From positions 1 through 33,926 of the IMG/VR virus record IMGVR_UViG_3300025132_000144: a stretch of 33,926 nt of DNA, one strand, 5' to 3'. Source of the DNA: a virus. The notes under the pieces are model-generated. The model searched no databases and was not told where the DNA came from. It saw only the letters and a list, made by a program, of their open reading frames with translations. Made by a program: the position numbers and the translations under genes. This document shows positions 14,301-30,609 of the stretch, piece by piece. Every line of letters begins with the position of its first letter. Position 1 is the first letter of the stretch.

Positions 14301-17011
14301 TAAATTTAGGAGCTTTAAAAGGTAAAGACTGGAGTTACAATCAAGCTAACAACTCTAAGTTAAATTACAATTATGTTGCTGGAGATAGAATTAGATTTAT
14401 AAGTTTTGAATCAAACAACTCTAGATTTAAGTACTCAGAATATATAGACTTAGAGATTGCAGGTATGGATCTTTACCTTCAAAACGAAGAGCCACCAATA
14501 GATGTTAACGGTGACACTGAAGGTTTTTACTTAAGAATAAACGACCCTGGAGAGACTGCTGCTCAATTTGGTAATGCTGCTCAAACTATTAATATAGCAC
14601 ACTCAGGTTTTAGTTACGCAAGTAGTGGGTATAACAAGCTTGTAGCAGAGATATATAGACCTAAGAAAGATTTAGATGAGGACTTAATGGTTTACTACGA
14701 GATAGGAGATAAAATACCTATTTTAAGTGCTGGTTTCCTTACTAGAAGACATGGTGGAGACTCATCTCAAGGATCAGACTTTACTTATAATAAAGAAATT
14801 GGTGAGAGAATATCTGATATTCCTGCTACTATAAATATCTCTAATGGAGATGTGTACTTTAAACCTAGAGGTATGGCCACCACAGATACTGGAAGTCTTC
14901 AAGAGGTATTCTTCCCTGAAGATTATTATCTTAATGATTTCCATAGGACAAACCACTACAGTAAAGGTAGGATAAACGTTGTTAACAATAACGCTGCTGA
15001 AAGAAGATTAGATACAACTGTGTACTACTCAGAAACATATTCTAGTACAGGTTCTGTTAACGGGTTATCTTCATTCAACCCTGCTAATAGTCCTTACTTT
15101 GATTATAATAAAAGCTTTGGGTCCATACAATCTCTTCAAATGAGGGATAACGACTTACTTATATTCCACGAGAATAAAGTTGGTAGAGTTTTAGTTCAGA
15201 AGGATATTCTTAATACAGCTTCTGGTGAAGGTTTAGTTTCGTTATCTACAAACGTAATAGGTAACTATGTAAGCCTTTATCAAGGTGAGTATGGTTGTTG
15301 CTTACAACCTGAAAGTATTGTTAGTTTTGGTAACATATTTTATTTTATTGATATTAAAAAGGGTGCTGCTTTAAGATTGTCAGCTGACGGTTTAACAGTA
15401 ATTTCTGATAGTGGTATGAGAGATTACTTTAGAGACCTTGGTGAAATGTATACTATTCATGACCCTGAACAAACTGAGAATCAAGTCTTTAATATTGTTG
15501 CAGGTTACGATCCTAAGTACGATGAGTATATTGTAACGTTCCCTAATGTTTACACTGATAGAGGAGAAGGCTTATGGGGTGGTGACAGAGGATTCTGGAA
15601 CTCTTCTATTGATAAGTATCAAAACAAAAGAGTAAATCTTATTTATAGTAATCAAACTATTGCTTTTAACGAGAAAGTAAATAGGTGGACATCTTTTTAC
15701 GAATTTTACCCAGAGTATTACGCTAGAATTGGTCGACAATTTATAGGGTTTAAAGAGGGGAGATTATATAGACACAATATGACTGATAGACATTATCAGG
15801 ACATATATGCTCTTTCTGAAGATCATTACCTTAACAAGGTTAATAAAAAATATAACAGTTTTTATGGTGAGCAGTTTGACTCTCATATAGAGTTTCCATT
15901 TAACGCTGAGCCTTCTTCTGTAAAATCTTTTAACGCTATTAGTTTAGAGAGTGACTCTAAATTATTTGCCTCTATGTACACTAATATAGGACAGGTTGTT
16001 CAGGGTAGTAGATTAAGTGATGGGTATAAAAATGTTATATCAACAGATATTGGCTATAAAAAAGTTGATGGTACGGTTTCTAAATACGAGTCTGAAACGT
16101 CAGGTAACAATGTTATTCAAGGTTTTGGAGTTAACTTCTTTGAGCAAGTAAAGAAAGGAGATTTGGTTAAAATATTTGGGCTAGATAAAAACAATATTTA
16201 CACTTTTATCCATAGGATTGTTATATCTGTTGTTTCAAATAGCTTAATTGTTTTAAATGAGGATATTAATATTACGGTTGAAGGTAACCACATGGAAACC
16301 TTAGACTACAAAACAAAAGAAGGGGTTCATTACGCTAACATTCCTTTTGTTGAGTCTATGATTAACACTAGTGGGGATGAGTTATCAGGATATGGTGATT
16401 ATAGTGAGGTAGGTGACGGATCAGAAATTTCTGGTATCGGACCAATTACAGGGATTACTTCTGCTGGTGGGTCTGTTTTGAAAGAATATAGTGGATTTTT
16501 TACTGCTGATTCTAATAGTATAAGCTATAAGATAACCCCAAATAATATGATTGTTGGTGCTGAGTATGTTTTAACCGATCAAAGTAATTATTTTAATGTA
16601 GGTTTAGTTAACAATAATTTTGTATATAATGCGTTTTCACCTACAGGAACTGTATTTGTCTGTCAAAAACCTACATCAATTGATACAGGAAAAGTTACTA
16701 GTACAGATTTCAAGTTATACGTTAGAAGACTAGACAATACAGTTGTATTCCTTGGTTATCCTTATTATTTAAGTTCAGGTTCTATTAGTTTTGTTGCTGA
16801 TTTAAACTACTCTCAACCAGACGATCAAGAAGCTGGAGGGTTTTTATTTGTAGTTAAGAATGGTAGAGTAGAGGGTGAGAAAATGAAAGGTCAGTATATG
16901 ATGACAACATTAACTACTGAACACCCAGGACCTGCAGTTCTATCAAAATATAAGTTTAACCTGTACGCTGCTAACGCTGATGTAGATAAGAGCGAGCTTA
17001 GTAATAAATAA
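5330..17011 (+). CDS. Giant tail nozzle ('muzzle'/stabilisation) protein with ~2100-residue appendage insertion
   Basis: The 3893-residue product starts like a nozzle/stabilisation protein: VFTGGMDKDSEPRLIKQGDY, RDAKNIRN, then SVENIEGTNE (residues 7-53). The matching continuation appears only at about residue 2165: GYKCIGVYEDKPKNKIYYF, LITGVSKIDDILYWTDN, FQFKYRYVHVDNEQTSYSP, DIEIVARKGNNGEF, KAKAQTVLSNNRIAYGN-type motifs, and a C-terminal LFAV-like strand (KYKFNLYAAN). The intervening segment (nt about 5495-11820) holds: a beta-rich region; a jelly-roll-like module (~465-583); a coiled coil (~649-689); a carbohydrate-binding-like module beginning NLITNGDF (~778-941); a long Ala/Asn-rich coiled coil (~1160-1385); a third module beginning NLATNSTFD (~1387-1522); two 26-residue repeats (1568-1619); and a fourth module (~1921-2114). 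The nozzle likely forms the tail tip. The insertion probably binds host surface glycans. No frameshift is visible across 11.7 kb. Confidence 0.8.
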   Translation: MAQDKRVFTGGMDKDSEPRLIKQGDYRDAKNIRNIASSDGTSGSVENIEGTNETNYNFIDESETIVEVINDQVVTVTQNFEYKDIIFSGKEVYNATYSFAPLNVNASGSLFPLFSNLPSGNLGWAGLNGALGTSAYLHSRFNPDNGTLSQNIPLLATNSVSGETTPILGRSELYVIHGSSINAYNAGVLTEMNGTEPLDGSRLFILRIISNVPDVSFELDFSHSNLTIGASGELGSGGIAPTYWSNTLDENLTYGSLDIMAPGNQVVLGSASGIQEELSEITVDGDLVSSTAENDDGSPIGDINVFSGNSNITEVQMTISGFNPTSAQDPLNEFKMFSVAQNEDGSIQAIPFAVDQFGLFESDFNSGDPFEFDGDQTEIAASLIDKLSVPFSTQIIVPSGSSSVTHTISTANQNVATDFSANTVLGVARSSNLSAEASASDFLVVESYDSLSSFNYGRFNSNFIDSNPSVAILNDSITIANPSRGGAFNREIFFPVPSTGIVKGETYRIEANISTFSSSGNSITFQTQDGNNISPAVTSTDSSFSFQFEAVENNQLFKLVIANDFAEQDTIVMSGVSIRQYQNPVGSLIVEFRASHNFDLVFGTDVATVIDQYEQGTSIRDLEWFSGVNVNLLQTIQYGEVYDNIIAGNQDYLDQIEELDNTIASLQDQLNSLTTEYNATITSLNDALALDSSEAIGSYNLINGSASNLAEAIAANDESLAVLFDTLGSNQDQVDDAFASGEAQGIASAAAELAALQIELDEALDNLENATATVVNAVGQNLITNGDFTSVGSLLNGSLGWRLYDGDNSFGAAQATGEDISIQDPGNGNGFLRLRRELDAIVDEITSVAAWNTTENSSEITESSKIYRLQFDVVSSTTVAGYPSTSLLQYYDGSGWVDVGSVSGLHDTNKVIFYEATGTIFAIRLRINDRILDLDNFSLQEISTDTLDDFYELENNLSTAQETLLEIEEAIALDTDVLVEANPGVTVENLINAYNEASGSVSGLTTEISGLIALLNNASFSNADVDASVNDQITELETAIQTIVNLDESIGGDQGFVNISEFQNAITNLQSSSGELIDLHADLQAIANNILDFIPSDMDYTSVPIDAESGEVVGIYNVSGLSDQTYYTMYQTVLEQIVNQYGTILLNANSISNENSSLNSQLIHDAEQAVSNLADQQEIFDGLLADAESDAVDAYNLQVAAETALANAEAAHADETAANAAAHAAEVGNLQTTIDENAITIVANNDEISDLQDQLAASYGIDEINNLNNQIDDLTNQNTALQDNNNALTAQISSINASLDSLSADLSQAVIDLNAANDALIAADPDLATAADNVASLTAIANGLEIDLQAALDNAEDGVSQADLDAAVAVVQDSLNTANEALNFLTGQNPLTNLATNSTFDDESNISPPHGTSVEGGVFSFSTNAMRVFRIPLENNSWVPGEYIFSCQLTSTTSVPIAIQNTEDYVPVGVNMSNPNISTTDGTLIYRITNTHLDEEGIGNARITFSLPVDSVGTLDNVYLFKVPDNLNLSDEAIGAISGDFENMQSQLVSSIVGLSNSASEDDLLFAYESGYSDGAASVTPEDGIGQADVDASYSVGYAAGAASVTPEDGISQTDLDAVQNLSNLISSNFLIEVGELTSNIVSLLGMLYNLSSSVESFSAGSLSAALGNLSLISTTNDTVVADFNEQYATDSQELNDIITAIQEQLLLVEEANAQGDGNVYNEYSFVLYGYSVFQNSHTFDFFNEGRAVQLIYLNDNLPGYEGHIDLVPDNGNNIAAGVLGSCHLFDNSPQSHNQDGTYGSLGPHDHIKVIGSGTENVTILKLSIKNFGSSSVLSTASSPLITENYEFFDGSESLIDRGLHFTISVLAGDPNWQFHTANDDGTNSQALDPDGSLTHVNLYNESLAIPATSSSSATNNITNTGSEEDFSSGQAGFTGTDAWNFVSAEDHWAHGETVIGPTDVLQKTPNLTLQAGTTYEVTFQCWCHFASNNENTARAFSVDLGDNSLGSTHANTASSVLYNNENPNEAIYEERYRRWEAFPGENVAVINDFSTPPGYANQYHKVVITTGDSYTANVLRIYGSPTSGSDESVSGGFTGWISNISINEIQLISAGTSTVNANLLYERTATAVENARSRYSNPLYNRSRILNGSAKRMIKDKVTGITKEIPIVADGYKCIGVYEDKPKNKIYYFVENKILNNKKYDCILEYDLMSDSVETVYQDGRVSSDGSNNRILNFYDSNLITGVSKIDDILYWTDNVRLSSTVYNRPRKINVELAKANEKNINSPRFVFKDAYIRSSVSTVYIGIGSNDHVLSAGDDIYAQLGLTSGAAATGINGYSRVIGVVRKPNVGTEFIVTNSSATVTTNIDHGLDDYQGDWIGIEDSANNNFPYYYQISTIVGNTITLTSPYNQATNSNGASPVTFGGKLAVGIITDSPWPGNFTPVDGVILYADPYSDNRLADAYSPLISFGTTEDKMKYFDVVKHQPTHKPSISINTDTSFAANNILDNVFQFKYRYVHVDNEQTSYSPISDIAIDPIFALNSAVDAEDYAAIANKIVVDYDDSIGDVKDIEIVARKGNNGEFVLVDNVTNNFVKYLKKAKNKYLPEYQYTDINSAINFYNNGTYPFVDKKDSDKLYDAVPKVAKAQTVLSNNRIAYGNIIEGFDNTNIVANSSYDNPEGSTLTSSSVALQTSAESGQGGFTDLQSSPAELFNNNLGGGDGKTEHTQAWYLGGLDLSSGKTQTVYINYSWKYQKQTDLSLVGTQKRNGSFSLPGVDVTGIETINELGNFLAQTINAGNGTTNLSTDDGDCNHTTSAEFDPSYSGVPLLKITFKYDHENPFSMAGTWDNLDGDKDKWQPTNESVFLSGDPGLSSFKTGAFHNFGIAYFDETNRCSFVNTAADYSNVTAVGGVPLNGTRPYNPFFTESAGPALNTPSQVTLNIYNQPPTWATHYQVYYTGNTTIDNDPDSDFPGFIQMMFVGAKVATDSNDKQIYLNLGALKGKDWSYNQANNSKLNYNYVAGDRIRFISFESNNSRFKYSEYIDLEIAGMDLYLQNEEPPIDVNGDTEGFYLRINDPGETAAQFGNAAQTINIAHSGFSYASSGYNKLVAEIYRPKKDLDEDLMVYYEIGDKIPILSAGFLTRRHGGDSSQGSDFTYNKEIGERISDIPATINISNGDVYFKPRGMATTDTGSLQEVFFPEDYYLNDFHRTNHYSKGRINVVNNNAAERRLDTTVYYSETYSSTGSVNGLSSFNPANSPYFDYNKSFGSIQSLQMRDNDLLIFHENKVGRVLVQKDILNTASGEGLVSLSTNVIGNYVSLYQGEYGCCLQPESIVSFGNIFYFIDIKKGAALRLSADGLTVISDSGMRDYFRDLGEMYTIHDPEQTENQVFNIVAGYDPKYDEYIVTFPNVYTDRGEGLWGGDRGFWNSSIDKYQNKRVNLIYSNQTIAFNEKVNRWTSFYEFYPEYYARIGRQFIGFKEGRLYRHNMTDRHYQDIYALSEDHYLNKVNKKYNSFYGEQFDSHIEFPFNAEPSSVKSFNAISLESDSKLFASMYTNIGQVVQGSRLSDGYKNVISTDIGYKKVDGTVSKYESETSGNNVIQGFGVNFFEQVKKGDLVKIFGLDKNNIYTFIHRIVISVVSNSLIVLNEDINITVEGNHMETLDYKTKEGVHYANIPFVESMINTSGDELSGYGDYSEVGDGSEISGIGPITGITSAGGSVLKEYSGFFTADSNSISYKITPNNMIVGAEYVLTDQSNYFNVGLVNNNFVYNAFSPTGTVFVCQKPTSIDTGKVTSTDFKLYVRRLDNTVVFLGYPYYLSSGSISFVADLNYSQPDDQEAGGFLFVVKNGRVEGEKMKGQYMMTTLTTEHPGPAVLSKYKFNLYAANADVDKSELSNK
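10031..10186 (+). repeat. Two tandem 78-bp in-frame repeats in the nozzle insertion
   Basis: Units at 10031-10108 and 10109-10186 encode 26 residues each with the shared core GAASVTPEDGI-Q-D-DA. A 33-base block is identical in both (10052-10084 and 10130-10162). A degenerate third copy of the core (EDGVSQADLDAAV) lies near 9400-9430. Such GAASVTPEDG repeats occur as spacers in phage tail proteins. The near-identity suggests recent duplication or recombination. Confidence 0.85.
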
Positions 17012-18231: not shown

Positions 18232-19719
18232 ATGAGTAATGGTTTATTTTTCACAGGTACAGTCCTTAAAAACAATCGTGACCTTTTAAAGGAGGAAGCT
18301 ACCAGACAACAACTTGCTTTACAAAAAGAAAAGCTTGACCTTAGAAAACAAGAGTTTGCTGATAGGCAAAAGGAAGCTAGGAGAAAAGGATCTAAAGCCG
18401 AAATAAAAGATTACAATATAAAGGGCATGGATTCCTTTTTGGTTGATTTATTTCAAGGGCAGGTTGGTGAATATCAAAGCTTTGCTAATGAAAACGCTAT
18501 GGCTATATATGATGGCGACAACGATCTTAAGCGTCAGCAAACAGATATAGAAAGAGATCTTACTACTACTAAAACCAAGTATGATAATATAAGTACTGAT
18601 TTAACATCTTTAAATGATCTTGTTACTGCAGGTAACGCAGAAGACCTTAAATTAGCTGAAGATGGTAGCTATCTTTATCAGTACAACTACAATAAGATTC
18701 AAGAAGAAGTTAGTAGTGGTAATATGACTTTAGACGAAGCTTTAGAAGTTTACCCTATAGACGCTCAATCTATGGTTAACCAAAGTGATTTTGTTCCTTT
18801 TTACATGGCAAATGACGATTACTTCGAGAAAGATGATGAAAAAAGAGAGGGGAAGTTTCCAGGAAAAGATGGTTATGAATATCTTAGTATATCAGAAGAT
18901 CAAAAAAATCAAACTACAAAAGAGATAATTACAAAACTAAGGGTAGACCCTAATGGAGAACATGCCGATAAAAACGCTGGGAGGGTTTATAATAGTGAGC
19001 AGTTTACTATAGATGGTGAAAGAATGACAGGTAAAGAAGCTTTCTTTTTAGAGGCTTACAAAAACGCTAACGGAGATCTTGAAAAGATTACAGCTCCTAG
19101 TGATACTTTAATGAGTCAACTAGACCCTCAAGGTGAAAACTTTAATAAGGAGTTATCTGACCAGTACGCTGAGTATTTAGGCAAAAAAATTGCTGATAGA
19201 GAGTACGAAGACAGAGGTCCTATAAGAGGATCTAAACCTTCAGCTAAAAAGGCAGGAGAAGAAGCTTTATCTAAGGATTCTATATCTTTATTAGAGAGTC
19301 CGTCAGAACAACTTAAAAACATAAATAATATCTCAGTTAAACTTGACGATAATAAGAGTGCTGTTTTGAGAGATGTGACTAAGATTTCAGTATTCTTAGA
19401 TGACTTGCAAGGTGTTGAAGGTCAGAATGTTGGGGACAAAGAAACTCCAGGAACGTTCTTATATAACAAGAACTGGTACGACTCTGACTCAGACAGTATT
19501 GAAGCTAATCTTCAAAGAATTGCTTTAACTGAAGACAACAAGCCTGTAGCTGTAATGGAATACAAAGGATCTTCATTCTTAGTTCCTTTAGGTAGGCTAG
19601 ACTCTTCTTTGTTTAAGAATAAATTTGAGAAGGGAAGTACAGGTGCTAAAATAATAGAATATTCTAATTTAGAATCATCTCAACAAGGTGGTGGAGCTAC
19701 AGAAACACTTGAATGGTAA
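18232..19719 (+). CDS. Unrecognised 495-residue late protein, probable internal virion protein
   Basis: I do not recognise a family. Residues about 10-60 form a strongly charged helix (EEATRQQLALQKEKLDLRKQ), and residues about 95-125 a second coiled coil (QQTDIERDLTTTKTKYDNIS). The rest is acidic, mostly helical and without membrane segments or catalytic motifs. The last 35 residues end in a Gln/Gly-rich tail. It starts directly after the previous gene and overlaps the next gene's first ATG codon, lying between a probable ejection protein and a giant polyvalent protein. A packaged protein ejected with the DNA, or a chaperone for the giant protein, would both fit. Confidence 0.6.
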   Translation: MSNGLFFTGTVLKNNRDLLKEEATRQQLALQKEKLDLRKQEFADRQKEARRKGSKAEIKDYNIKGMDSFLVDLFQGQVGEYQSFANENAMAIYDGDNDLKRQQTDIERDLTTTKTKYDNISTDLTSLNDLVTAGNAEDLKLAEDGSYLYQYNYNKIQEEVSSGNMTLDEALEVYPIDAQSMVNQSDFVPFYMANDDYFEKDDEKREGKFPGKDGYEYLSISEDQKNQTTKEIITKLRVDPNGEHADKNAGRVYNSEQFTIDGERMTGKEAFFLEAYKNANGDLEKITAPSDTLMSQLDPQGENFNKELSDQYAEYLGKKIADREYEDRGPIRGSKPSAKKAGEEALSKDSISLLESPSEQLKNINNISVKLDDNKSAVLRDVTKISVFLDDLQGVEGQNVGDKETPGTFLYNKNWYDSDSDSIEANLQRIALTEDNKPVAVMEYKGSSFLVPLGRLDSSLFKNKFEKGSTGAKIIEYSNLESSQQGGGATETLEW

Positions 19720-22700
19720 TGAATGACGATTTAAAAAAACTATACGAAGCAATTTCAACTAAGTTTGATGTTGGTTCATTTGATGACTTTTCTGCTAAAA
19801 TGGAAACAGAAGATATGCGTAAAAGTTTTTACGATACTGTTTCTGGAAAAGGTATAGACCTTGGTGACTATGAGCAATACGAGTCTAGGTTAAAAAAAAA
19901 AGATTCTTCTATGCCTCAAGGTGCGAGTGCCCAAGTGGATACAGAGGTTTCTCCATCAGTGTCGGAAGATGGTCAATCTTCTTTGGAACAAGACGTTCAA
20001 GCTAGTTTAGAGGAAAGATTAGCTAGTTATGATGGTGTCTCCAACGAGGAGAAGATAAAGATAGCTAGACAGGAAGACCAAAGACCTTTCTTTGAAGCTC
20101 AAGGGTTAAATTACGATGATTTTTTATCAGCAAAAAGTAAAGAGGAAGAGGTTGAGTCAACAAGAAAGACTCAAGAAGAGAAGGATGATCAAGCTTCTTG
20201 GGCTGAGAAGTGGTACGACAGGTTTTCTAATTGGTCAGAATACAACCAAGAACAAACCGAACTAGCTGAGAAAGATGCTACTTCAAAACTATACCTATCT
20301 GGTAACGAAGAAAAGATTAAAGCTGCAAAGACAGAGTATGACAACGCTTTGTTTCAATCCATAGCTAAATCATCTCAATCACCTGAAGAATTTTCTAAAG
20401 CCTTAGAGGATTCAGATATAGACTCACACAATATAAGAATGTCTGCCATGACTATAGATGGCAAAGAAGCTTCTATTAACGAATCTTTAGATTATTGGAT
20501 GAAGACTGATAATGTTAACGCTGCCCAAGATGGGGAAAGCGTAAACTTTAGTATAACAGTTCCAGATCCAAGTGACCCAAGCTACGAGGCTATAAAGTAC
20601 GTTGAAGACTTTATGAATAGACAAATAGATTCTGGAGGAAGGTTTGGTGACTGGGGGCAGAATCTTTTAGCTACAACTATAGATTTAGGTGCAGGTTTTC
20701 TTGAGCAGTTAGAGAAAGCTCCTGCAGCTTTAGGGATGAAACCATCTCCTTTAACTGATTCAGAAGAGTTTGAAGATTTATCTGCCTGGGATTTATATAT
20801 GCAAGAGGGTGGATACTATGCTAATAAGGTTAGCGATTACGCTGAGAATATAAGAGAGAAGACTAGAATACCTGAAGAGTCATCTATTACAAAGGCTATA
20901 TTTGACGGTAACTTTGATGACGCTTTTTTTAATACAGGTAATGGTATTGCTAACGCAGTTCCTTTTACTTTATCTATAGCCCTAGCAGGTGGAGGAACAG
21001 TTCCCCTTATACTTGGTGGTGCCTCAGCTGGAGGTATGAAATCTTTAGAACTTAAAGAAAGAAGAAGAAAAGGTGAAGATATAAAGGATTGGCAAATACA
21101 CTTTAGCGAAGGTGTTACTGCTGTTTCAGAGGCTTTCTTTGAAAAGTATACCCAAGGAATTATAAACTCTGCTAGAACTGCTGGTGGGTTTAAAGCTATT
21201 AAAGATCCTAATATTTTACTTGATAGTTACTTCCAAGGTATTAAAAAATCTATGTTCATAGAAGGGTCTTCTGAGGTAGCAACAGAAGCTTCTCAGTATC
21301 TTGCTGATGCCATCCCTGCAGTTGGACTAGAAGAGTTCGACTCTGGAGAGTTTGCTATTAGGATGGTAGATACAGGTATTATATCAACTCTATTTGGTGG
21401 ACTTACTTATACTACAGTTAGGGGTGCTAAAGATATTAGTAGAAATCTAAACATAATCAACGACAACACCTCTGTAATCTTTACAAACGAAAAGGGTGAA
21501 ACAAGAGAGGTATCTAGGGGTGAGGCTATTAACCTTGCTAAAGATCCAGAAGTGGCACAACAAATTAGAGATGGTAAACTTAAAGTAGACTACTCTGTAA
21601 GTGATGTGGCTCGACAGGCTATAGATGATTTAGTTTATGGTCACAGTGCACCTGATGCTCAGCAGGCTAAAGCTAAGATGTTTGAAAAAGAGAAAGCTGT
21701 ATCTAGCTTATCTAGAAAAATTAATCAAGCCAAAGAGGATGCGAAGGCTAGTAAAGAGGACTACGAAGTTTCCATGGAGGATGTCTCTAGTCTTGCAAGT
21801 GCTATCTCTGAAATGGAGGTTGAAGGTAAGAAGTCTAAGTATAACGTTACTGAAAGTACTAGAGCTGCTAGAGCTGAGTCTAAAAAAATCCTTGACGATA
21901 ACAATATAGAAATAGTAGACGCTGTAGAATCTCAAAACACGTCTGTATCTAAAGTCACTGAAACTGTAGACGCTACAAAGATAGATAGTCAAGAGCAGTA
22001 TGACGCTGTTAAAAAGCAGTTGGAGGACGGTAAGAGAAAACCAACAGTGGTACAATCTCAAAACCAAAGTGGTATAAAGGTTAATGGCGAAGTATCTCAA
22101 ACATCAGAGATAACTCAAGGTAAGTTTAAAAGTGTTTCTGCAGCTAGAAACGCTATGAAAGACTTTGAAGCTAAGAGAGATGCTGCTAAGAGAGGGGAGA
22201 TGTTAGAGAGTGATTTATCATACGCTAACAATAAACTCTTTATAAACACTAAAAAACAAAACCTTGACGAGATACCTCAAGAGGTTATAGATAACAACGA
22301 TTACCACGTGTTAACTTCAGAGAAAGAAGGTCTAACAGAGCAAGAGAGAGTCTCTAGAATGGAGAGTCTTAAGTCTATGCTAGATGAGGCTGGTGCAACT
22401 TATTATACCGTTCAAGGTGTTTATAACGGGGTTGCTGAAGAAAGCCTTGTGGTAACAGGAATAGATAACGCTACTGCTTTAAATCTAGGTAATCAGTTTC
22501 AACAAGAATCTATTTTCTCATCTAAAGATGGGTTGATGTTTGGTGATGGACGTGTAGTTCCTTTAGATGGTGATATGGTTAAAGGACCAGACGCTAGAAA
22601 AAGGGATACTTTAACAATAATGAATGTTGGTGGAAGAAAAGTTTCTATTCATTCAGGTTTAAATAGACTTAAAACTAGTTACGGTAAAAACTTTAACTCA

Positions 22701-25700
22701 GATAATATTCACAAGTTAGACGAGAGTGATCCTAACCATGATAGTGAAGTATTCCAAGGTTTAACTAAAGATCGAAAAAGAGCTTTAGGTTTTGCCTTTA
22801 AACTACTTAGTTCTATTGGTGGCCTTAACGTTACTGTTATTAGAAATAGTAAAGCTATGGAGGAGCAATTAAAAGCCATAGGTCAAGACCCTTCTAAAAA
22901 AATGGGTTCTTTCTTTAGAGGTGCTGACAAGACTATATATGTAAACCTTGAGACTGCTCGTGGCAACACTTTATTCCACGAGATCATTCACCCTATGGTT
23001 GACTTCATTAAGAAGTCTGATCCAGCTCTATATAATAGGATAGAAGCTGAGGTTAAAGAGAGTGGTGTTAAGAGAAGAGTGATGAAGAATGGTCGTAGAA
23101 TGAAGGGTTCTTACCTTGATTGGGCTAAAACAAACTATGAGGGTCTCTCTGAAGAAGGACTTATAGAGGAAGCTTTTGCTGAGATGATGGGTGACGCTGC
23201 TTATGGTCACTTTGTAAATAGTCAATCTAAACTATCTAGAATTAGAGAGGTTATAAAGGCAATGTTATCTAGACTTGGTATTACATCACCTTTTGAAAAT
23301 GTTGAAGCTATAGATCTTAACCAGATGTCTTTATCTAATTTAAGAACAGATTTAGCTGAAGCTTTAGTAAATGGTAGAAAGATTAACGTTGGAGGTGTAG
23401 AGTTTGAGGTTGGAGACATACAAGCTGATAAAGATAAGGTTAACGAGTCTATTAAATTTCAAGTAGACAAATTAGAAAACAATTCTGACCTTGGTGTTGT
23501 AAATATAAACATACCAGATAATACTCAAACCCAAGAGATAAGATTTCAGACTCCTGAATTTTACCCAAACTTTGACGTATCAAAAGTAAAAAGAGGTAGT
23601 ATAAAAGAGTTTAATGGTCAGAAGGCTTTACTTATGTTAACCGATAGGTCAGCATCTGGTATGGTTGTATCTCCAACAGGAGTTAAACATGAGTTTGATG
23701 GTGGAGTGTTTTATCCTTACCAAGAAGATACAGGTGTTTGGGCATTCTCAGATAAGGCTGCAGCAACTAGAATGATTAACGCAGCTAGAGAGAGTGATGG
23801 TTTAGTTTTCTTAACTGCTATGGCTCCAGGATCTATTGACGGTAGCGTTAACATGTTTGATTACGTTATGAAAGAACTTGATCAGGCTATAAAAGACAAG
23901 AGAGCTACTAAAAAAGAAGTTGTAGAGTTCCTTAATAAAAAGATGACTATCAAGTCTTTTGACTCTAAAGCTAAGGATCAAGGTATAAAAACATCTAAGA
24001 TTAAATCTGTAAAAGAGTTTAGTAATCTAGTCTTATCTATGCCTCAAGCTTTTGGTGTTAGAAAAGATATAATAAGAAAATCTATACAGAGTAAGATATT
24101 TGAAAAGTGGGGTATTCCTTCCATGCAAGAAATATACAACACTGTTAATCAAGACATTATAAAAGATCTGAAAGGTAACCCTATAGTATCTGCTATTAAA
24201 ATAGATACAGAAGCTGGGTATGTGGATTCTAGGCTTGATGATAAAATAAAAGATCATCCTACTTATCCATACGTTGTTAAGGGAGAGCCTTTAATGATCT
24301 TTGATGAGTCTGTTGACGCTTCAGAAGTTTGGGGTGAACTTAACTTAGCTGATAAGTTCTTGATAGATTCTAGAACAGGAGAAAAATTAAGTGAGGGTCA
24401 AACACAATCTAGAAGACAAAGAAAGATTGAGATGGCTAGACCTGTTGTTGATATTAGAATGCAGGCTCCTACATACGATATGGAATATACACCTAACTCT
24501 TTAATATCTTTATCTATGTTATCTGATAACAACAGACAACCAGAACAGTGGGTTAAGGAGATAGGTAAAGGCGTTAAAGGTGCTTCAAAGGATGTTGACA
24601 CTATGGGATTATTAGACCTTCTTAAAGCTTATAAAAAGGAAGCTAAGGTTAAGAGTATACCTAAAGAAGTTGTAGCTCAGTTGATAGCTACCAATATGGC
24701 TCAGATAGAGACTAACATCTTAGATAAAACAATAGTCCAATATCCTGGAGCTGTTCTTCCTGGAGGTGAAAACTACAGAGAGTTTCTTATAAATGACAAA
24801 TCTCCTGAAACTATATTTAGTGCCCCTCATTATTTTGGATTACCCTACGCATCGAAAAACCTTATAGCCTCTGCTAGGGTGGATGATAGAGTTGGTCCTA
24901 ATGGGGAGAAGATTCTATTTGTCCAAGAGATACAGTCTGATTGGGCTCAAAGAGCTGCTGATAAGAAAAAATCTGGAGAAAAACTTGGATTTAAAAAAGA
25001 TAATCCACCTCTTACTAAGGAGGAGGGTAATGAAATGGGTGATCTCTCAGCAATATATAATAGAGCAATAAACGAACAGGTAAAAGGCATAAAAGATCCT
25101 TGGGTAGAAAATCTTTTATTTGAATCTGGGGGTTATAGAATTTTTGAATTACTTGAGAGAGTTAATGAAAGAATGAGCAACTCAAAACCAACTGAGGATT
25201 TAAAAAATTACCAGAGATATTTACAACTACAGATGAAAGACGCTAGATTTGAAGATGCTGTAGTAGATCTCCCTTGGAATCAAACAGACCTATGGGTTGG
25301 GTTAACTATTAGAAAGCTTATCAATCAAGCCTCTAAAGAGGGTTACGATCAGATAGCCTTTGTTAATGGCGAGCAGTCTGATAGAGTGCAAGGGCATACT
25401 GATGGTAGAACAGCAGAGTTCTATGATAAGATAATACCTAAGAATATAAACAAAGAGCTTGATAGACTTGTCAAAGGCTCTAAGTTTGAAGTTGGCTCTA
25501 TTGATGAGGCTGTTGTTAACTACACTCTAGCTGATTTTGAGGTTACTTCATCTTCTGAGCTTGAAAACGGAAATATACAATCAGTATTTACGTTAGAAAC
25601 TAGCATGGATAGAGGTGATCAAGTGTCGTTTACTGTGTTATATAAAAATGAAGAGTTCGCAGATGCTGGTGCTCCTTTTGAGTATGAACTAGAATATAAA

Positions 25701-28613
25701 GGAAAGCAAAAAAAATATACTACCTCGCCTGCTTTACAGAACGAGATTCTATCTCTAGTAAATGCAAAACAATCTATAGTTGATCAAGCTATGGGTGACT
25801 TAGCAGGAATGATGGGAAGTGTTTTAAGGGCAAAAAATCAGAACGCAGTAATAAACCTAACCCCAGAACTTAAAGCTGCCACTGATAAGGTTGGTCCACT
25901 TAGGTTCCAAGCTCCTCAAGAGGAAGGAGAAGCTAACGTGTACACTTCAGGGTTAACAACTATAGCTTGGGATATTGCTGACGCAGTTATTAAGGCTGAT
26001 TATGCTGCAGGAAAGTATTTAAGTAAAATACTATCTAAGACAGGTGCAGATAAAGGTAAGGGCTATAAGGTAAGGTTATCTCAACTTTTAGGTAAATCAA
26101 TTGGTGAGCACTCTAACGCAGAGGTTAAAGAGATAATGGTACTTAGTAGGGGTAATCTTAACGCTGAAATTTTAAGGGTTTCAGAAAACAGTAAAGATTT
26201 ACAGAAAGCATTAGAGGGTACTGACTTTACATCAGATCAAATAAACGATTTACTTCATAACATGGATGAGATTAGATCCATGGAAGACTCAGAAATTAAG
26301 TCTATCCTTGTAGATATGAGAATGCACATAGATCAACTTAGTAGAACCCTTATAGAGGAAGAAATGATTGAGGGTAGCACTATGTTTACTGTAGATGAAA
26401 ACATGGGTGTCTACGTTAGAAGATCTTACAAACAGTTTGAAGCTAAGGGTTGGGAGCAGACAGACAACGATATAATAAAGAAAGCCAAAGAGTTTTTATA
26501 CAAAGAAGCTAAGAAAGAAAACCCTACAGCTACTATAAAAGAACTTAATAATATTGTAGGTAAGAATTACAAAAAACTAACAGAGGACAAGGAGTTTTTG
26601 TATAATATAAAAAACTCAACCAGCCTTGATGGACTCAATAGAGTTAACTCTATATTTAAAGAGAAGAAGGTTATACCTGAAGAGATTAGAGACCTTTGGG
26701 GTCAGATAGATAACCCTTTATTTAACTATAGCAATACCGCTATCAAACTAGCTAAAACAGTGTCTGCTGAAAGGATGTATAGAGATATATACGATATTGG
26801 TAAAGGTAAATTTATTTCAGATAGTTTTCAATTAGAAGTTACAGAAAACGAGTTAAAAGGATCTAAGTGGGGATCTTTAGAAGGTAAGTTTGTTGATGAA
26901 GAAATGTTTGCTGTAATGAATCAAGTTGTTGAAAATAAAAATGGCAACGAGCTTCTTAACTTTTACATGAAGATTGTTTTGTTTAACAAAAAAATGTCTA
27001 CTGTTTGGAATCCTGGTACTCATTTTAAAAACGTTGTTGGTAACACAGCTTTTGCTACCATGAATGGTCATATAGGGTTTAGAGGTGAAATGTACAAAGA
27101 TGCTAAAACAGCTTTTAATACAGTAAGATCTCTCAAAGATCCTGAGCTTAAAGCTTTTTATTCAAAATTAGTTAAGCTAGGGGTTGTAAACTCTTCAGCT
27201 TCACTTCAAGAGATAAGAGGTATAGCTAACGATGTATACGATAGTAACTTTGACTTATCAGAATACTTAGATGAAGGAAGAGGGTATGTGGCTAAAAGAA
27301 TGGCTAAGTTAAGTAGAGGGGCTAAAGGAAATATTAAAAAAATTGATGACAGACTTATGAGTCTATATCAAAAGGAGGATGATGTTTGGAAAGCCTTTGG
27401 TTTTATGTCTGAAAAAGCTAGATACATAAAAGCTGGTTTAGATGTCAATCTAGCAGAGCAAATGGCTGCTAAAAATATTAGAAACTTATATCCTAACTAC
27501 AACGAAGTACCTCGTATTATAAGATTACTAGGTCGTAACGCTTTAGTTGGTTCATTCGTTGCTTTCCAAGCTGAATCTGTTCGTAACTCTAAAAATGCTC
27601 TAGCATTAGGATTTGAGGAGATGGGAAGTAATAATTCAAAAATCAAAAAGATTGGTGCTACAAGAATTGCAGGTACTATTGCTACAATGACTTTAATGGA
27701 AAGTCTTCAGCTGTACACAATACAACTATTAGGTGGGGCTATAGGATCTCTTTTAGCAGGATTTGGATTTGGAGAAGATGATGAAGAAGTAGAAGATAGA
27801 ATGATGCGAACTGTAATGCCTGAATGGGATGCTTCTGGTAACATCGCCCTTACCTCAAGGGGTGAGCTTGAATCTATGCAGACTGAAGGTCAAACTCAAG
27901 GAGATAAATACTTTGATTACATAAACTTTTCTAACGTATCTGGAGTCGGTTATATTAAAGATATAATGAGACTTATGTTTAATGATCTCAATACTAATAT
28001 TGGTAAAGAGTCTATGTTAGACATATTAGAAAAAGTTTACGCACCCTTTTTAGGTCAGGAGATGACTTTAACAGTTATGATGGATGCTATAAACAATAAG
28101 GGCAATAAAGTTTATAACCCTACAGATGATATTCACATGCAGATAGCTAGTATTATATCTTATGTTGGTAGCGAAATTGGCCCTGGATTTGTAAGATCAG
28201 GCTTAAGGATTAAAGATTCTATGGATGCTGATTCTGATAAAGTTCCTGTATACGAAACATTAGCTTTCTTTGGATTAAGAGTAAATAGGATTAACGTAAA
28301 CAAGAATATGTCTATACAAACTTACTACGTTTACAAAGACATGATAGATAGAGTTGGCTACGAGGTGTTGAAAGATGAAGATATGTTAATAAATACAGCT
28401 AACCCAGAAGGATCCACTTATGATTCTAAAATGGACGACTACATTAATAGTCTGGTTGATGTTTATGGTGTAGGCATACTAAACAGTATAGAAGGTGATG
28501 ATATTTTATCTATATTTAGAAATTCTAGAATTAGTGAAGAAGTTATAAAGCTTGTAGATCAGAGAGCTAAATCTAGATACCAAGAAGATTATATAAACGT
28601 AGAGGCTAAATAA
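19713..28613 (+). CDS. Giant polyvalent virion protein with zinc-metalloprotease (HEIIH) domain
   Basis: The 2966-residue product fits 'large polyvalent proteins', which are packaged in the head and delivered into the host. The N-terminus (LYEAISTKFDVGSFDDFSAK, then GIDLGDYEQYESRL) matches the start of such proteins in Bacteroidota phages. Segments seen: a hydrophobic Gly/Ala-rich stretch (~409-446); a DUF3293-like segment (~863-946, VQGVYNGVAEESLVVTGID, then GNQFQQESI); a metallopeptidase domain (~1030-1190) with HEIIH at 1089-1093 and EEAFAE at 1152-1157; a polyvalent-associated domain (~1684-1910, PGGENYREFLI, FVQEIQSDWAQ, GYDQIAFVNGEQ); and a C-terminal module with STVWNPGTHFKNVVGNTAF (~2430-2448), VPRIIRLLGRNALVGSFVAF (~2600) and a hydrophobic segment (~2651-2688). 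Likely roles are cleaving host or phage proteins after entry, or aiding DNA passage. ATG 19719, in a TAATG junction with the previous stop, is an equally good start. Confidence 0.75.
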   Translation: MVMNDDLKKLYEAISTKFDVGSFDDFSAKMETEDMRKSFYDTVSGKGIDLGDYEQYESRLKKKDSSMPQGASAQVDTEVSPSVSEDGQSSLEQDVQASLEERLASYDGVSNEEKIKIARQEDQRPFFEAQGLNYDDFLSAKSKEEEVESTRKTQEEKDDQASWAEKWYDRFSNWSEYNQEQTELAEKDATSKLYLSGNEEKIKAAKTEYDNALFQSIAKSSQSPEEFSKALEDSDIDSHNIRMSAMTIDGKEASINESLDYWMKTDNVNAAQDGESVNFSITVPDPSDPSYEAIKYVEDFMNRQIDSGGRFGDWGQNLLATTIDLGAGFLEQLEKAPAALGMKPSPLTDSEEFEDLSAWDLYMQEGGYYANKVSDYAENIREKTRIPEESSITKAIFDGNFDDAFFNTGNGIANAVPFTLSIALAGGGTVPLILGGASAGGMKSLELKERRRKGEDIKDWQIHFSEGVTAVSEAFFEKYTQGIINSARTAGGFKAIKDPNILLDSYFQGIKKSMFIEGSSEVATEASQYLADAIPAVGLEEFDSGEFAIRMVDTGIISTLFGGLTYTTVRGAKDISRNLNIINDNTSVIFTNEKGETREVSRGEAINLAKDPEVAQQIRDGKLKVDYSVSDVARQAIDDLVYGHSAPDAQQAKAKMFEKEKAVSSLSRKINQAKEDAKASKEDYEVSMEDVSSLASAISEMEVEGKKSKYNVTESTRAARAESKKILDDNNIEIVDAVESQNTSVSKVTETVDATKIDSQEQYDAVKKQLEDGKRKPTVVQSQNQSGIKVNGEVSQTSEITQGKFKSVSAARNAMKDFEAKRDAAKRGEMLESDLSYANNKLFINTKKQNLDEIPQEVIDNNDYHVLTSEKEGLTEQERVSRMESLKSMLDEAGATYYTVQGVYNGVAEESLVVTGIDNATALNLGNQFQQESIFSSKDGLMFGDGRVVPLDGDMVKGPDARKRDTLTIMNVGGRKVSIHSGLNRLKTSYGKNFNSDNIHKLDESDPNHDSEVFQGLTKDRKRALGFAFKLLSSIGGLNVTVIRNSKAMEEQLKAIGQDPSKKMGSFFRGADKTIYVNLETARGNTLFHEIIHPMVDFIKKSDPALYNRIEAEVKESGVKRRVMKNGRRMKGSYLDWAKTNYEGLSEEGLIEEAFAEMMGDAAYGHFVNSQSKLSRIREVIKAMLSRLGITSPFENVEAIDLNQMSLSNLRTDLAEALVNGRKINVGGVEFEVGDIQADKDKVNESIKFQVDKLENNSDLGVVNINIPDNTQTQEIRFQTPEFYPNFDVSKVKRGSIKEFNGQKALLMLTDRSASGMVVSPTGVKHEFDGGVFYPYQEDTGVWAFSDKAAATRMINAARESDGLVFLTAMAPGSIDGSVNMFDYVMKELDQAIKDKRATKKEVVEFLNKKMTIKSFDSKAKDQGIKTSKIKSVKEFSNLVLSMPQAFGVRKDIIRKSIQSKIFEKWGIPSMQEIYNTVNQDIIKDLKGNPIVSAIKIDTEAGYVDSRLDDKIKDHPTYPYVVKGEPLMIFDESVDASEVWGELNLADKFLIDSRTGEKLSEGQTQSRRQRKIEMARPVVDIRMQAPTYDMEYTPNSLISLSMLSDNNRQPEQWVKEIGKGVKGASKDVDTMGLLDLLKAYKKEAKVKSIPKEVVAQLIATNMAQIETNILDKTIVQYPGAVLPGGENYREFLINDKSPETIFSAPHYFGLPYASKNLIASARVDDRVGPNGEKILFVQEIQSDWAQRAADKKKSGEKLGFKKDNPPLTKEEGNEMGDLSAIYNRAINEQVKGIKDPWVENLLFESGGYRIFELLERVNERMSNSKPTEDLKNYQRYLQLQMKDARFEDAVVDLPWNQTDLWVGLTIRKLINQASKEGYDQIAFVNGEQSDRVQGHTDGRTAEFYDKIIPKNINKELDRLVKGSKFEVGSIDEAVVNYTLADFEVTSSSELENGNIQSVFTLETSMDRGDQVSFTVLYKNEEFADAGAPFEYELEYKGKQKKYTTSPALQNEILSLVNAKQSIVDQAMGDLAGMMGSVLRAKNQNAVINLTPELKAATDKVGPLRFQAPQEEGEANVYTSGLTTIAWDIADAVIKADYAAGKYLSKILSKTGADKGKGYKVRLSQLLGKSIGEHSNAEVKEIMVLSRGNLNAEILRVSENSKDLQKALEGTDFTSDQINDLLHNMDEIRSMEDSEIKSILVDMRMHIDQLSRTLIEEEMIEGSTMFTVDENMGVYVRRSYKQFEAKGWEQTDNDIIKKAKEFLYKEAKKENPTATIKELNNIVGKNYKKLTEDKEFLYNIKNSTSLDGLNRVNSIFKEKKVIPEEIRDLWGQIDNPLFNYSNTAIKLAKTVSAERMYRDIYDIGKGKFISDSFQLEVTENELKGSKWGSLEGKFVDEEMFAVMNQVVENKNGNELLNFYMKIVLFNKKMSTVWNPGTHFKNVVGNTAFATMNGHIGFRGEMYKDAKTAFNTVRSLKDPELKAFYSKLVKLGVVNSSASLQEIRGIANDVYDSNFDLSEYLDEGRGYVAKRMAKLSRGAKGNIKKIDDRLMSLYQKEDDVWKAFGFMSEKARYIKAGLDVNLAEQMAAKNIRNLYPNYNEVPRIIRLLGRNALVGSFVAFQAESVRNSKNALALGFEEMGSNNSKIKKIGATRIAGTIATMTLMESLQLYTIQLLGGAIGSLLAGFGFGEDDEEVEDRMMRTVMPEWDASGNIALTSRGELESMQTEGQTQGDKYFDYINFSNVSGVGYIKDIMRLMFNDLNTNIGKESMLDILEKVYAPFLGQEMTLTVMMDAINNKGNKVYNPTDDIHMQIASIISYVGSEIGPGFVRSGLRIKDSMDADSDKVPVYETLAFFGLRVNRINVNKNMSIQTYYVYKDMIDRVGYEVLKDEDMLINTANPEGSTYDSKMDDYINSLVDVYGVGILNSIEGDDILSIFRNSRISEEVIKLVDQRAKSRYQEDYINVEAK

Positions 28614-28777
28614 TTTACAAACATTATATAATTAATTATTTAATTACTAAATTTGTAATACTTTTCTAAGGTTCCATTCTGGAACAGTTTGCTTTTTTGT
28701 TCGCATTCATAGATTAGTTTTTTGGTTGTTTAAGAAGGAGGGGTAGTTCCCTCCTTTTTTTTTATTATATTAGCTGT
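28614..28777. other. Intergenic region after the late operon
   Basis: This 164-base region is AT-rich at first and has no coding frame. It holds a TAAATTTG box (28648-28655) without a clear -33 partner. A weak 5-bp hairpin, GTTCC/GGAAC (28671-28685), is followed by a T-rich tail, then comes the main late terminator (28735-28763). A short transcript from the TAAATTTG box to the terminator would be about 100 bases, but nothing proves it exists. Confidence 0.5.
28735..28763 (+). terminator. Late-operon rho-independent terminator
   Basis: An 8-bp stem AAGGAGGG (28735-28742) / CCCTCCTT (28749-28756) with loop GTAGTT runs into an uninterrupted T-tract to 28763. This is a strong plus-strand intrinsic terminator. 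On the minus strand the stem is not followed by T's, so it should act in one direction. Confidence 0.85.
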
Positions 28778-28909
28778 ATGGAAATAGGTATACAATTAGT
28801 TAATGGAGCAGTGTTTGGATTTAGACTATTTGCTCCGACAGAATCTATGCCATACAACGAAATCCAGATCTTTGCTGGAGTTATATGCTTTTATGTTATC
28901 TGGGATTAG
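28778..28909 (+). CDS. Small orphan protein (43 residues) at the operon convergence point
   Basis: ATG at 28778, TAG at 28907-28909. The product starts MEIGIQLVNGAVFGFRLF, has a polar middle (APTESMPYNE) and ends in a hydrophobic strand or helix (IQIFAGVICFYVIWD). The reading frame is full of hydrophobic and aromatic residues in a protein-like pattern. The gene lies between the late terminator and phoH, overlapping the 3' end of phoH by four bases on the opposite strand. It is therefore separated from the late operon by a terminator, and would need read-through or its own promoter, which I cannot identify. I believe small proteins of this style occur next to phoH in related phages, but this is unverified. 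Function unknown; membrane association is possible. Confidence 0.55.
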   Translation: MEIGIQLVNGAVFGFRLFAPTESMPYNEIQIFAGVICFYVIWD

Positions 28910-29565
28910 TAGCCACTAAGTAGCTTAAGAACGTCATCTATAGCTTGATGCCTGTGGTTATCTTCTAGAATAACCTTGAATACAAAATCACTATCCTTTA
29001 TTTTTGCAACGTCATGTATGGCTGAGTAGTTTTGATCTTTAAGATCTATCTGTTGATTGTCTCCACAGAATATCATTATAGAGTCCTTACCTAGCCTACC
29101 TAACGCCATACGAAACTGAGCCTTTGTTAAGTTTTGAAACTCATCTACTATAACTACAGAGCTATCAAATGTTCTACCTCTAAAGTGAGATAAAGATACA
29201 AGCTCTATCTCTCCTTTCTCAACCATACTATTAATCTTATCAGACTTATTGTAAACCTTACGCATGTTTGACATAATTGGTACAAGCCAAGGTTCAAGCT
29301 TTTCTTTCTCACTGCCTGGAAGAAAACCATTATCCTCAGTAGCTATGGTAGGTCTAGTAATTATAATCTTACTGTACTGTCTTTTAAAGAACATGTCAAG
29401 AGCAACCTGAACAGCAAGAAGGGTTTTACCAGATCCAGCCTTACCTATTACAAAACTAAAAGCATGGTTTAAAATACTTTCTTTAGCCTTCTTTTGTTCT
29501 TCAGATAAAGTTATGTTAAACTTAATATTACCCTTGGGTCTCTTTTTATCCTTGTTATCTGTCAT
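28906..29565 (-). CDS. phoH: PhoH-like P-loop ATPase
   Basis: The 219-residue product has the PhoH core. Walker A GKAGSGKT is at 41-48, the PhoH motif IIITRPT at 67-73 with DNGFLPG at 78-84, Walker B VVIVDEFQN at 137-145, and a sensor-like motif FCGDNQQID at 166-174. Length is typical of phage PhoH proteins, which lack the extra N-terminal domains of cellular ones. PhoH-like proteins bind and hydrolyse ATP; some have RNA-unwinding activity, but the phage role is not settled. PhoH is common in marine phages. The start ATG overlaps the stop of the upstream Cys-cluster micro-gene (ATGA), pointing to coupled translation. It is the last gene of the minus-strand operon. The first 15 residues are Lys-rich and probably disordered. 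Confidence 0.92.
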   Translation of the reverse strand: MTDNKDKKRPKGNIKFNITLSEEQKKAKESILNHAFSFVIGKAGSGKTLLAVQVALDMFFKRQYSKIIITRPTIATEDNGFLPGSEKEKLEPWLVPIMSNMRKVYNKSDKINSMVEKGEIELVSLSHFRGRTFDSSVVIVDEFQNLTKAQFRMALGRLGKDSIMIFCGDNQQIDLKDQNYSAIHDVAKIKDSDFVFKVILEDNHRHQAIDDVLKLLSGY

Positions 29566-29720
29566 GCTTCACAGTTATCTCCACAACAGCCATCCTCACA
29601 GGAATCATCCTCGTCTTCAGGATCTACAAGGTCTACTATCCAAGATTCAAATAGTTTATCTTTAGATTCGTCTGATCTTCTTAACGCTTCTCTTAAAGCT
29701 TCATCTCTGTCGTGTAACAT
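29562..29720 (-). CDS. Acidic micro-protein with C-terminal cysteine cluster (52 residues)
   Basis: ATG at 29720-29718 and TGA at 29564-29562, the stop sharing bases with the phoH start (ATGA). The first half is a charged amphipathic helix (LHDRDEALREALRRSDES). A short hydrophobic patch (LFESWIVDLV) is followed by a very acidic run (DPEDEDD). The last 12 residues carry four Cys in the pattern C-x3-CC-x3-C. Such clusters usually bind a metal or form disulfides, but the protein is too small to assign a fold. The coupled start suggests production in step with PhoH. The gene is short but has convincing composition and junctions. It follows the minus-strand terminator at 29735-29790, so it may depend on read-through. 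Confidence 0.65.
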   Translation of the reverse strand: MLHDRDEALREALRRSDESKDKLFESWIVDLVDPEDEDDSCEDGCCGDNCEA

Positions 29721-29734
29721 TACTATATTATTTT

Positions 29735-29790
29735 AAAAAAAGTATTGGGGGGGTACATGGACGGCCAAATCTCAACCCCCCCCCGAATAC
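29735..29790 (-). terminator. Minus-strand terminator with poly-G/poly-C stem
   Basis: Read on the minus strand: GTATTC plus nine G's (29790-29776), a loop of about 22 bases, then seven C's plus AATAC (29753-29742), then seven T's (29741-29735). GTATT and AATAC also pair, giving a 12-bp stem with one bulged C. The T-run directly after the stem marks a rho-independent terminator for the resolvase transcript. The long loop and homopolymer arms are unusual. Confidence 0.6.
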
Positions 29791-29798
29791 AAGAACAA

Positions 29799-29824
29799 CC
29801 TAACCCATATTGCTTAAGGCTAGG
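29799..29824 (-). other. Second hairpin in the non-coding gap upstream of the terminator
   Basis: On the minus strand CCTAGCC (29824-29818) pairs with GGTTAGG (29805-29799) through seven pairs, one a G-T wobble. The adjoining T (29817) and G (29806) can add an eighth wobble pair; the loop is about 10-11 bases. It lies just before the poly-G hairpin. Together they make most of the 130-base gap 29721-29850 structured. No coding frame or tRNA pattern is seen in the gap. Confidence 0.45.
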
Positions 29825-29850
29825 ATTTAGATGTGTAGCACTCACGCAGC

Positions 29851-30315
29851 TTACTCTCGTTTTTTAGAACCCCTGTTTAAAATAAGGTCTACAGTTGCGT
29901 CAACTTCCTTTTGATTTGATGGGACATATACGTCTAATTTTTGATCAGTATCATAAAGATACTTTAAAAACAGTTTGAACCTCATCTTAAATTCAGGAGT
30001 TCTTATTCCTTTTGTTTCTATAATAAAACCTTCCTCTAAATTAATAAAGTCTGGCGTGTAAGATATATTTCTTATGTTACCAGGCTTTTGTTTAAAGGTG
30101 GTCTTACCTTTTGTTTTACCCTTATCCATAAGGAGACCCTCGAACCTGAATTTTTCTACAAGCTCAAAGGTTTTTCCTTCGTATTGATTGGGGATTTTTG
30201 CTTTTTTAAGGGCTTTATAACAGTACAACTCTAGTCCTGAGGCAAATGTGATACCATCTACAACGTGTTTCTTAGCTTTAGTTATTTGCTTTCCCTTTCT
30301 TCTTTTGAATCGCAT
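29851..30315 (-). CDS. T7 endonuclease I-like Holliday-junction resolvase (PD-(D/E)XK)
   Basis: The 154-residue product (from the ATG at 30315; a TTG one codon upstream is less likely) carries the phage endonuclease I-like pattern. Counting from the ATG these are: Glu29 in FASGLELYCYKAL, Asp89 in YTPDF, and Glu100-x-Lys102 in IIETKG. These match the catalytic E, D and E-x-K residues of the PD-(D/E)XK fold. The N-terminal 20 residues are very basic (RFKRRKGKQITKAKKH), as expected for a DNA-binding arm. Residues 50-80 include a Lys-rich loop (MDKGKTKGKTTFKQK) between the first and second catalytic parts. It should cleave branched DNA formed in replication and recombination before packaging. It belongs to the minus-strand replication operon and is followed by a structured terminator region. 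Confidence 0.85.
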   Translation of the reverse strand: MRFKRRKGKQITKAKKHVVDGITFASGLELYCYKALKKAKIPNQYEGKTFELVEKFRFEGLLMDKGKTKGKTTFKQKPGNIRNISYTPDFINLEEGFIIETKGIRTPEFKMRFKLFLKYLYDTDQKLDVYVPSNQKEVDATVDLILNRGSKKRE

Positions 30316-30319
30316 CAAA

Positions 30320-30327
30320 GCAAGTTA
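30320..30327 (-). promoter_or_regulatory. Promoter-like box upstream of the resolvase
   Basis: Minus-strand TAACTTGC (30327-30320), within TTCGTAACTTGC. A near-identical TTCGTATCTTGC lies before the next upstream gene. The box resembles the Bacteroidota TAnnTTTG with one T fewer. It ends only four bases before the ATG, so a transcript starting from it would be leaderless or nearly so. No TTG is seen at the usual -33 distance. Confidence 0.3.
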
Positions 30328-30336
30328 CGAAAATAA

Positions 30337-30609
30337 TTATTTCTTTCCTCTGTTCCTTGCTCTGTTTTTAGATTGACTCTCCATAACTAGCCCACCATTT
30401 TTAGTGTGAGAAGCGTCTTTACCATCACCCTTCTTACCCTTCTTTCTATTAAAAAGATTTAACTTAACACGATATTTTTTTCTTTCCTCAGAAGAGGAAT
30501 ACTCTTTATCGTACTGGTTTTTCTTTTTTCTAGACTTAAGGTTTTTAGCGTAATGCTTAGAGCTGTTACTCTTACCATTAATCTTTCCAGCTAATTTATT
30601 TTGTGCCAT
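30337..30609 (-). CDS. Small, highly basic conserved phage protein
   Basis: The 90-residue product is about one third Lys and Arg. It contains SSKHYAKNLKSRKKKNQYDK, then EYSSSEERKKYRVKLNLFNR, DGKDASHTKNGGLV and a C-terminal SKNRARNRGKK. The pattern 'HYAKN..SRKKK..YD..Y....ER.KYR..LN..NR' with 'GDGKD.SHTK.G..V..S.SKNRARN' is one I recognise as widespread in marine and crAss-like phages, with no established function. The composition suggests nucleic-acid binding, perhaps ribosome- or DNA-associated. The start is the ATG after TATTATAACGTAAT, and a promoter-like box lies 20 bases upstream. Confidence 0.8.
   Translation of the reverse strand: MAQNKLAGKINGKSNSSKHYAKNLKSRKKKNQYDKEYSSSEERKKYRVKLNLFNRKKGKKGDGKDASHTKNGGLVMESQSKNRARNRGKK

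Follow-up and report, generated by a model that had tools for sequence, protein, structure and literature searches.

The window, a whole virus record of 33,926 bases, encodes a capsid protein distantly related (about 26-30%) to those of flavophages, namely Cellulophaga phi40:1 (Pervagoviridae, Callevirus), elemo and Maribacter phage Panino, and from these relatives its hosts are probably marine Bacteroidota. The plus-strand operon is mostly filled by two giant genes of 3893 aa (5330-17011) and 2966 aa (19713-28613). A 43-aa frame (28778-28909, plus strand) closes the structural operon and may be a real conserved microprotein gene, because what appears to be the same coding stretch recurs, reversed, in relatives L090, L094, L097, L109, L113 and L126. 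Between the converging operons lies a hairpin, AAGGAGGG..CCCTCCTT, followed by a T run (28732-28762, plus strand), which is an ordinary terminator; relatives have similar hairpins there. No tRNA or tmRNA was found in the window, and a scan of it for sigma-70-type promoters, a consensus that does not cover Bacteroidota promoters, gave matches at chance level.

The feature under study is a 130-nt gap in the minus-strand early operon. Upstream of it lies a gene for a Holliday-junction-resolvase / T7 endonuclease I-like protein of 155 aa (DUF1064; 29851-30318, minus strand; phrog_190, E 2.3e-13), for which PF06356 also scored over its cut-off. Downstream are a Cys-rich microprotein of 52 aa (29562-29720, minus strand), which is kept in relatives and for which PHROG and Pfam searches gave no match, and a PhoH-like protein of 219 aa (28906-29565, minus strand; phrog_170, E 7.7e-63). 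In distant relatives several Cys residues of the microprotein are retained in an acidic tail, which suggests a putative metal site. A 40-aa GTG frame across the gap (29723-29845) was rejected as a gene: homopolymer indels between relatives change the reading frame, so that no protein is conserved there.

Read on the minus strand, the gap contains two hairpins, which the initial annotation had already located exactly. Hairpin B (29799-29824) pairs CCTAGCC (29824-29818) with GGTTAGG (29805-29799) through seven pairs, one of them G-U, around a loop with a conserved AAGCAATA, and is an optional module. It is separated by the linker TTGTTCTT (29791-29798) from hairpin C (29742-29790), whose 12 pairs join GTATT (29790-29786) and, after one unpaired C, nine G's (29784-29776) to seven C's (29753-29747) and AATAC (29746-29742). 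The loop of hairpin C carries an apical motif conserved in relatives, here GATTTGGCCGTC (29760-29771). A tract of seven T's (29735-29741) follows directly as a terminator-like 3' end, giving the succession of G+C-rich stem and T tract typical of intrinsic terminators, and in the window hairpin C can still serve as a leaky terminator; a terminator scan does not list it because its loop is longer than 8 nt. As had been claimed, long G and C runs are rare in this DNA: those of at least seven bases occur in the window only in the gap (four overlapping matches), whereas shuffled windows hold 0.67 on average and reach four in 2 of 100 shuffles. The whole gap folds no better than its shuffles (z -0.43; 60 of 200 fold equally well), since dinucleotide shuffles tend to preserve runs; taken alone, hairpin C gives z -1.71 (15 of 200 shuffles) and hairpin B z -2.39 (5 of 200). 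Single-sequence folding is weak evidence, so the case is decided by the relatives.

Comparison with relatives revealed a third element, module A (29834-29860, minus strand), absent from the initial annotation and overlapping the stop codon (29853-29851) of the endonuclease gene. It is predicted to form an H-type pseudoknot in which, in the window, helix S1 pairs ACG with a CGU in the loop, and helix S2 pairs G-U-(bulge)-A-G-C with GCUAC. Model R1, built from 55 sequences including the copy in the window, matches the window at 29831-29862 with 46.1 bits (E 1.8e-10), the next best match scoring 11 bits. The consensus reads A-[C/A]-G-W-GA-G-Y-A-A-G-C-U-R-C-[G/U]-U-GA-R-Y-G-C-U-R-C. The first bases of S1 pair with the loop, and at one of these positions C-G and A-U alternate between copies (C-G 30, A-U 22, U-G 1, other 2; n=55). 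S2 can be fully replaced, as in GCAAGC/GCTGC, GTACCA/TGGGC, GCTTCC/GGAAG and GGTGAC/GTTAC. After the removal of 4 of 59 A-like strings, whose S2 does not pair, the 55 distinct copies have changes on both sides at 4 of the 5 S2 pairs and at 1 of the 4 S1 pairs, so that both helices covary; the fourth pair of S1 (W-R) can form in just 30 of these 55. Among these copies 90.9% of cells are paired, as compared with 76.0% in shuffles, and 61 are changed on both sides, as compared with 17.4 in shuffles and at most 14 in slid structures, counts that are inflated by the kinship of the sequences. Two of the five whole-structure measures are without clear excess, namely the number of pairs with a both-side change (5, equalled by 81 of 500 shuffles) and of further pair types (12, equalled by 133 of 500).

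Hairpin C is found in 46 distinct versions among relatives. In 28 representatives less than 80% alike, its own arms scored 24.4 and permuted arms 18.4, a difference matched in none of 2000 permutations. An error in homopolymer length, raised earlier as something that could remove the match, would not matter, because the C stems of relatives are built from mixed bases; their G run is shorter (5 to 9 within the window's own clade) or interrupted by A, and the opposite arm follows. The commonest forms of the apical motif are GATTTGGTCGTC and ACTTGGTCGTC, the former being common to relatives together with its surrounding stems. The tail after hairpin C contains TTTT in 14 and TTTTT in 9 of the 28 representatives, against 4.3% and 1.0% of background 14-mers from the window's early region. 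Hairpin B varies mildly over 20 sequence variants, with a compensatory exchange of CCTAGC/GCTAGG for CCTAGT/ACTAGG. It is gone in L113, L115 and L117, which retain A and C, and is replaced by an unrelated hairpin in L008-L010; in L002, L005, L006, L090 and L092 a different hairpin (CTCTCC...GGAGAG) comes first. The linker with its neighbours could alternatively pair with the 5' strand of module A (ACGAGAGUAA / UUGUUCUUGU), a helix that RNAalifold favours in 26 window-type copies. This pairing beats shuffled linkers (0 of 200) but not the linkers of other elements (p 0.096); it is thus without covariation support, which leaves room for a two-state switch. A pairing of the 3' strand of A with the loop of C was tried and found unsupported (p 0.73).

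The same site was compared in the best 80 of 230 phoH loci and in 70 endonuclease loci. The element is kept in close relatives, and more distant ones have the microprotein gene immediately after that of the endonuclease. Among 57 distinct flanks, with 9 short flanks set aside, module A is present in 21, of which 9 have phoH downstream and 12 do not, and absent from 36, of which 22 have phoH and 14 do not. The constant association expected of a phoH attenuator is therefore not observed, and the initial proposal of an attenuator controlling phoH and the Cys microprotein finds no support in this dissociation. In L126, A and C are kept at the operon end though microprotein and phoH are both gone, and L093, with an endonuclease 91% identical, has no element at this site.

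Beyond this site, the module A pattern occurs in at least 120 viral stretches and the hairpin C pattern in 32 stretches of viral contigs. Two matches to the latter, those in L166 and L173, are probably accidental. In L151 (4732-4755, minus strand), an otherwise unrelated GC-rich contig, the match is a perfect GC-rich hairpin whose loop is TTGATTTGGTCGTCT; it may be either chance or a distant C hairpin. With model R1 and a limit of E 1e-3, module A was detected in 21 out of the 35 virus records, a fraction that is no prevalence since the records were picked for carrying A, phoH or the endonuclease; G032 gave a weak match only, and module A was not found in any of four isolated flavophages (phi40:1, elemoF, Panino, immuto). 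In all 21 records it lies at a single locus, in 1 to 4 copies within 660 bases. The gene families beside it, assigned from mechanical choices of open reading frames, number about 28 upstream (113 assigned) and about 50 downstream (114 assigned) over 120 distinct contexts, and the PhoH group accounts for 8 of the 114 downstream neighbours; as loci were fetched by pattern or by phoH or endonuclease, the sample is biased and its frequencies do not estimate those of the population. In 107 of 113 contexts A and the upstream gene share a strand, and the downstream gene lies on the strand of A in 96 of 114, mostly nearby. In L158, L178 and L288 the element stands between convergent genes.

Searches for the element elsewhere were mostly negative. 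In 84,980 prokaryote species genomes only four exact matches were found, three in Serratia and one in Marinobacterium, and these were taken as chance because all lie within open frames 221 or more codons long. Among 50,697 phage records no similar DNA was found for the window element or that of L170, and queries with L174, L249 and L196 gave only weak short matches. Rfam searches of window positions 28600-30400 at E 5 returned three sub-threshold matches to families of animals, plants and plastids, among them MIR395 (plus strand), which touches the gap; the L203 element at E 10 had no match, and at gathering score sets of 14 and 17 loci, including wider modules, gave tRNAs only. No description of the element was found in the literature searched.

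More conserved modules adjoin A in many contigs. Module E, known in 25 distinct copies (L158, L170, L175, L180, L189, L194, L196, L234 and others), is built as a double hairpin closed by AGGC/GCCU, and its loop-loop helix covaries, with four main versions (GCAGU/ACUGC, CGGU/ACCG, CUGU/ACAG and AGAGU/ACUCU). T runs often follow it, at some loci it stands shortly before a start codon, and some copies, such as those of L093 and L170, are not next to A. The window, which is shorter than many relatives (54 to 62 kb), has no E and a single A. Upstream of A in L196, L234, L242, L243 and L192 another conserved module was noted, GGTAATGTCTCAACAATACCAATAAGACC, which in several loci lies within an ACAGCC/GGCTGT stem and could form an H-type pseudoknot. 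L283 (805-948, minus strand) and L284 (556-692, minus strand) each have a tRNA-like gene with a long internal insert and copies of A on either side; Rfam scores these genes as tRNA at 35.5 and 33.4 bits over 144 and 137 nt, and ARAGORN misses them. Similar insert-bearing tRNA-like stretches seem to precede A in L289-L291.

Taken together, the relatives establish, at the level of sequence, a predicted minus-strand fold composed of pseudoknot A, hairpin B and hairpin C with its conserved apical loop, in which the pairing of A and C is maintained through compensatory changes. They likewise establish an element that occupies one locus per genome, swaps gene neighbours, gains and loses modules and is independent of phoH. 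Conserved pairing had been named in advance as the property on which the structured elements depended, and together with the conserved loops it bears out the suggestion of a structured RNA, either a processed small RNA or a protein-binding element. The element is more probably a small RNA with its own function than a phoH switch.

The model that we favour, with moderate confidence, proposes that the gap belongs to a family of structured, modular RNAs, so far undescribed, which uncultured phages carry and which work in trans. The element would be transcribed together with the early operon, and hairpin C with its T tract would set, or partly set, a 3' end. Processing or termination would then yield an RNA of about 130 nt that acts in trans and offers its invariant loop bases, which are GAG and U-R-C-K-UGA for A and GGUCGUC for C, to another RNA or a protein. 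The most plausible partner is a host factor that binds or cleaves RNA and that the phage must bind or distract; the RNA may serve to decoy a host protein that binds RNA. Action in trans is favoured, as a proposal, because of the single locus, the changing neighbours and the persistence at operon ends. Against it, the downstream gene is mostly close and on the same strand, which also fits a role in cis, TTTT is present in only half of the C tails, and on window-type copies taken alone RNAalifold favours the other helix for the 5' strand of A. A more specific and rather speculative version, to which we give distinctly less credence, describes a counter-defence RNA locus in which shuffled pseudoknotted modules (A, E and others) would each decoy a different RNA-binding or RNA-cleaving host defence protein, for example type III toxins, the modules being gained and lost like the genes of anti-defence islands.

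It could also be argued that the element is confined to cis, as an mRNA processing, stability or insulation element in which A blocks 5' exonucleases for the downstream message and C terminates the upstream message at its 3' end. This is the main rival and a possibility to be held tentatively. The overlap of A with the upstream stop codon, the strand shared with the upstream gene (107 of 113) and usually with the downstream one, the T tract found behind hairpin C both in the window and in half the representatives, and the retention of the element at operon ends are all consistent with it. A general insulator, however, should recur between operons rather than keep to one locus per genome, the invariant loop bases exceed what a block or a terminator needs, and A alone, A-A and A-tRNA arrangements occur without C.

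Less probable still, and in our view unlikely, is an attenuator or riboswitch-like leader for the Cys microprotein and phoH, switching among pseudoknot A, the A-linker helix and terminator C. Its appeal lies in hairpin C plus T7 ending 14 nt before the start codon of the microprotein and in the alternative helix of the window clade, an argument opposed by the dissociation from phoH (9, 12, 22 and 14 of the 57 flanks), by the roughly 50 different gene families that the element precedes elsewhere, and by the statistics of the two alternative pairings (p 0.096 and p 0.73). A signal at the DNA level, for replication, recombination or packaging, would agree with the single locus per genome and with the recombination and replication genes near it in the window, yet it is very improbable, because the pseudoknot is strand-specific, contains G-U pairs and has undergone compensatory changes, and because its strand matches that of the upstream gene 107 times out of 113. 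Chance hairpins or a homopolymer artefact, which the unremarkable single-sequence folding energy (z -0.43) would allow, can be practically dismissed, as relatives on many separate metagenome contigs conserve the element and show compensatory changes in it.

A pseudoknotted RNA present in at least 120 viral stretches and absent from Rfam and from the bacterial species scanned represents a large unexplained conserved phage RNA. Action in trans would make it a natural RNA effector, possibly one used in counter-defence. It lends itself to direct testing, since its loops are conserved and close relatives include pairs with and without it.

Among known systems, the strand order of module A (S1-GA-S2-U-S1'-loop-S2') resembles that of ToxI, whose letters, as compared here, agree with the positions named in PMC3475682. 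Type III antitoxin RNAs (ToxI, CptI, TenpI) are short H-type pseudoknots, and phages are known to carry mimics of them, such as the pseudo-ToxI of phage phiTE (PMC3475682; review PMC5086642). As with ToxI, the element is sometimes multi-copy and followed by a terminator-like hairpin and then a gene. Unlike the tandem array of ToxI, it has 1 to 4 copies with irregular spacing (21 records), and one in the window, where its neighbours are the endonuclease, the microprotein and PhoH rather than a ToxN/AbiQ gene. The ToxN/AbiQ toxin (PF13958) scored over its cut-off in none of 29 carrier records, which gave two sub-threshold matches with internal stops, and the downstream genes of the element, again unlike ToxI, span about 50 families, with no Rfam match at E 10 for the L203 element. 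The ToxI-like shape of module A is thus a lead only. GOLLD and ROOL are large ornate RNAs, structured, phage-borne and sometimes located beside tRNAs; the element shares with them structure, carriage by phages and, at some loci, tRNAs close by, and differs in consisting of small modules without an Rfam match. Like the PeSL cassettes of T4-like phages, each a promoter plus an early stem-loop, the element is intergenic and comes and goes between genes; it differs in having one locus per genome and a pseudoknot. Hairpin C resembles an intrinsic terminator in its G+C-rich stem and T tract, and departs from one in that half of its representatives are without TTTT and in that its loop, of more than 20 nt, carries a conserved motif.
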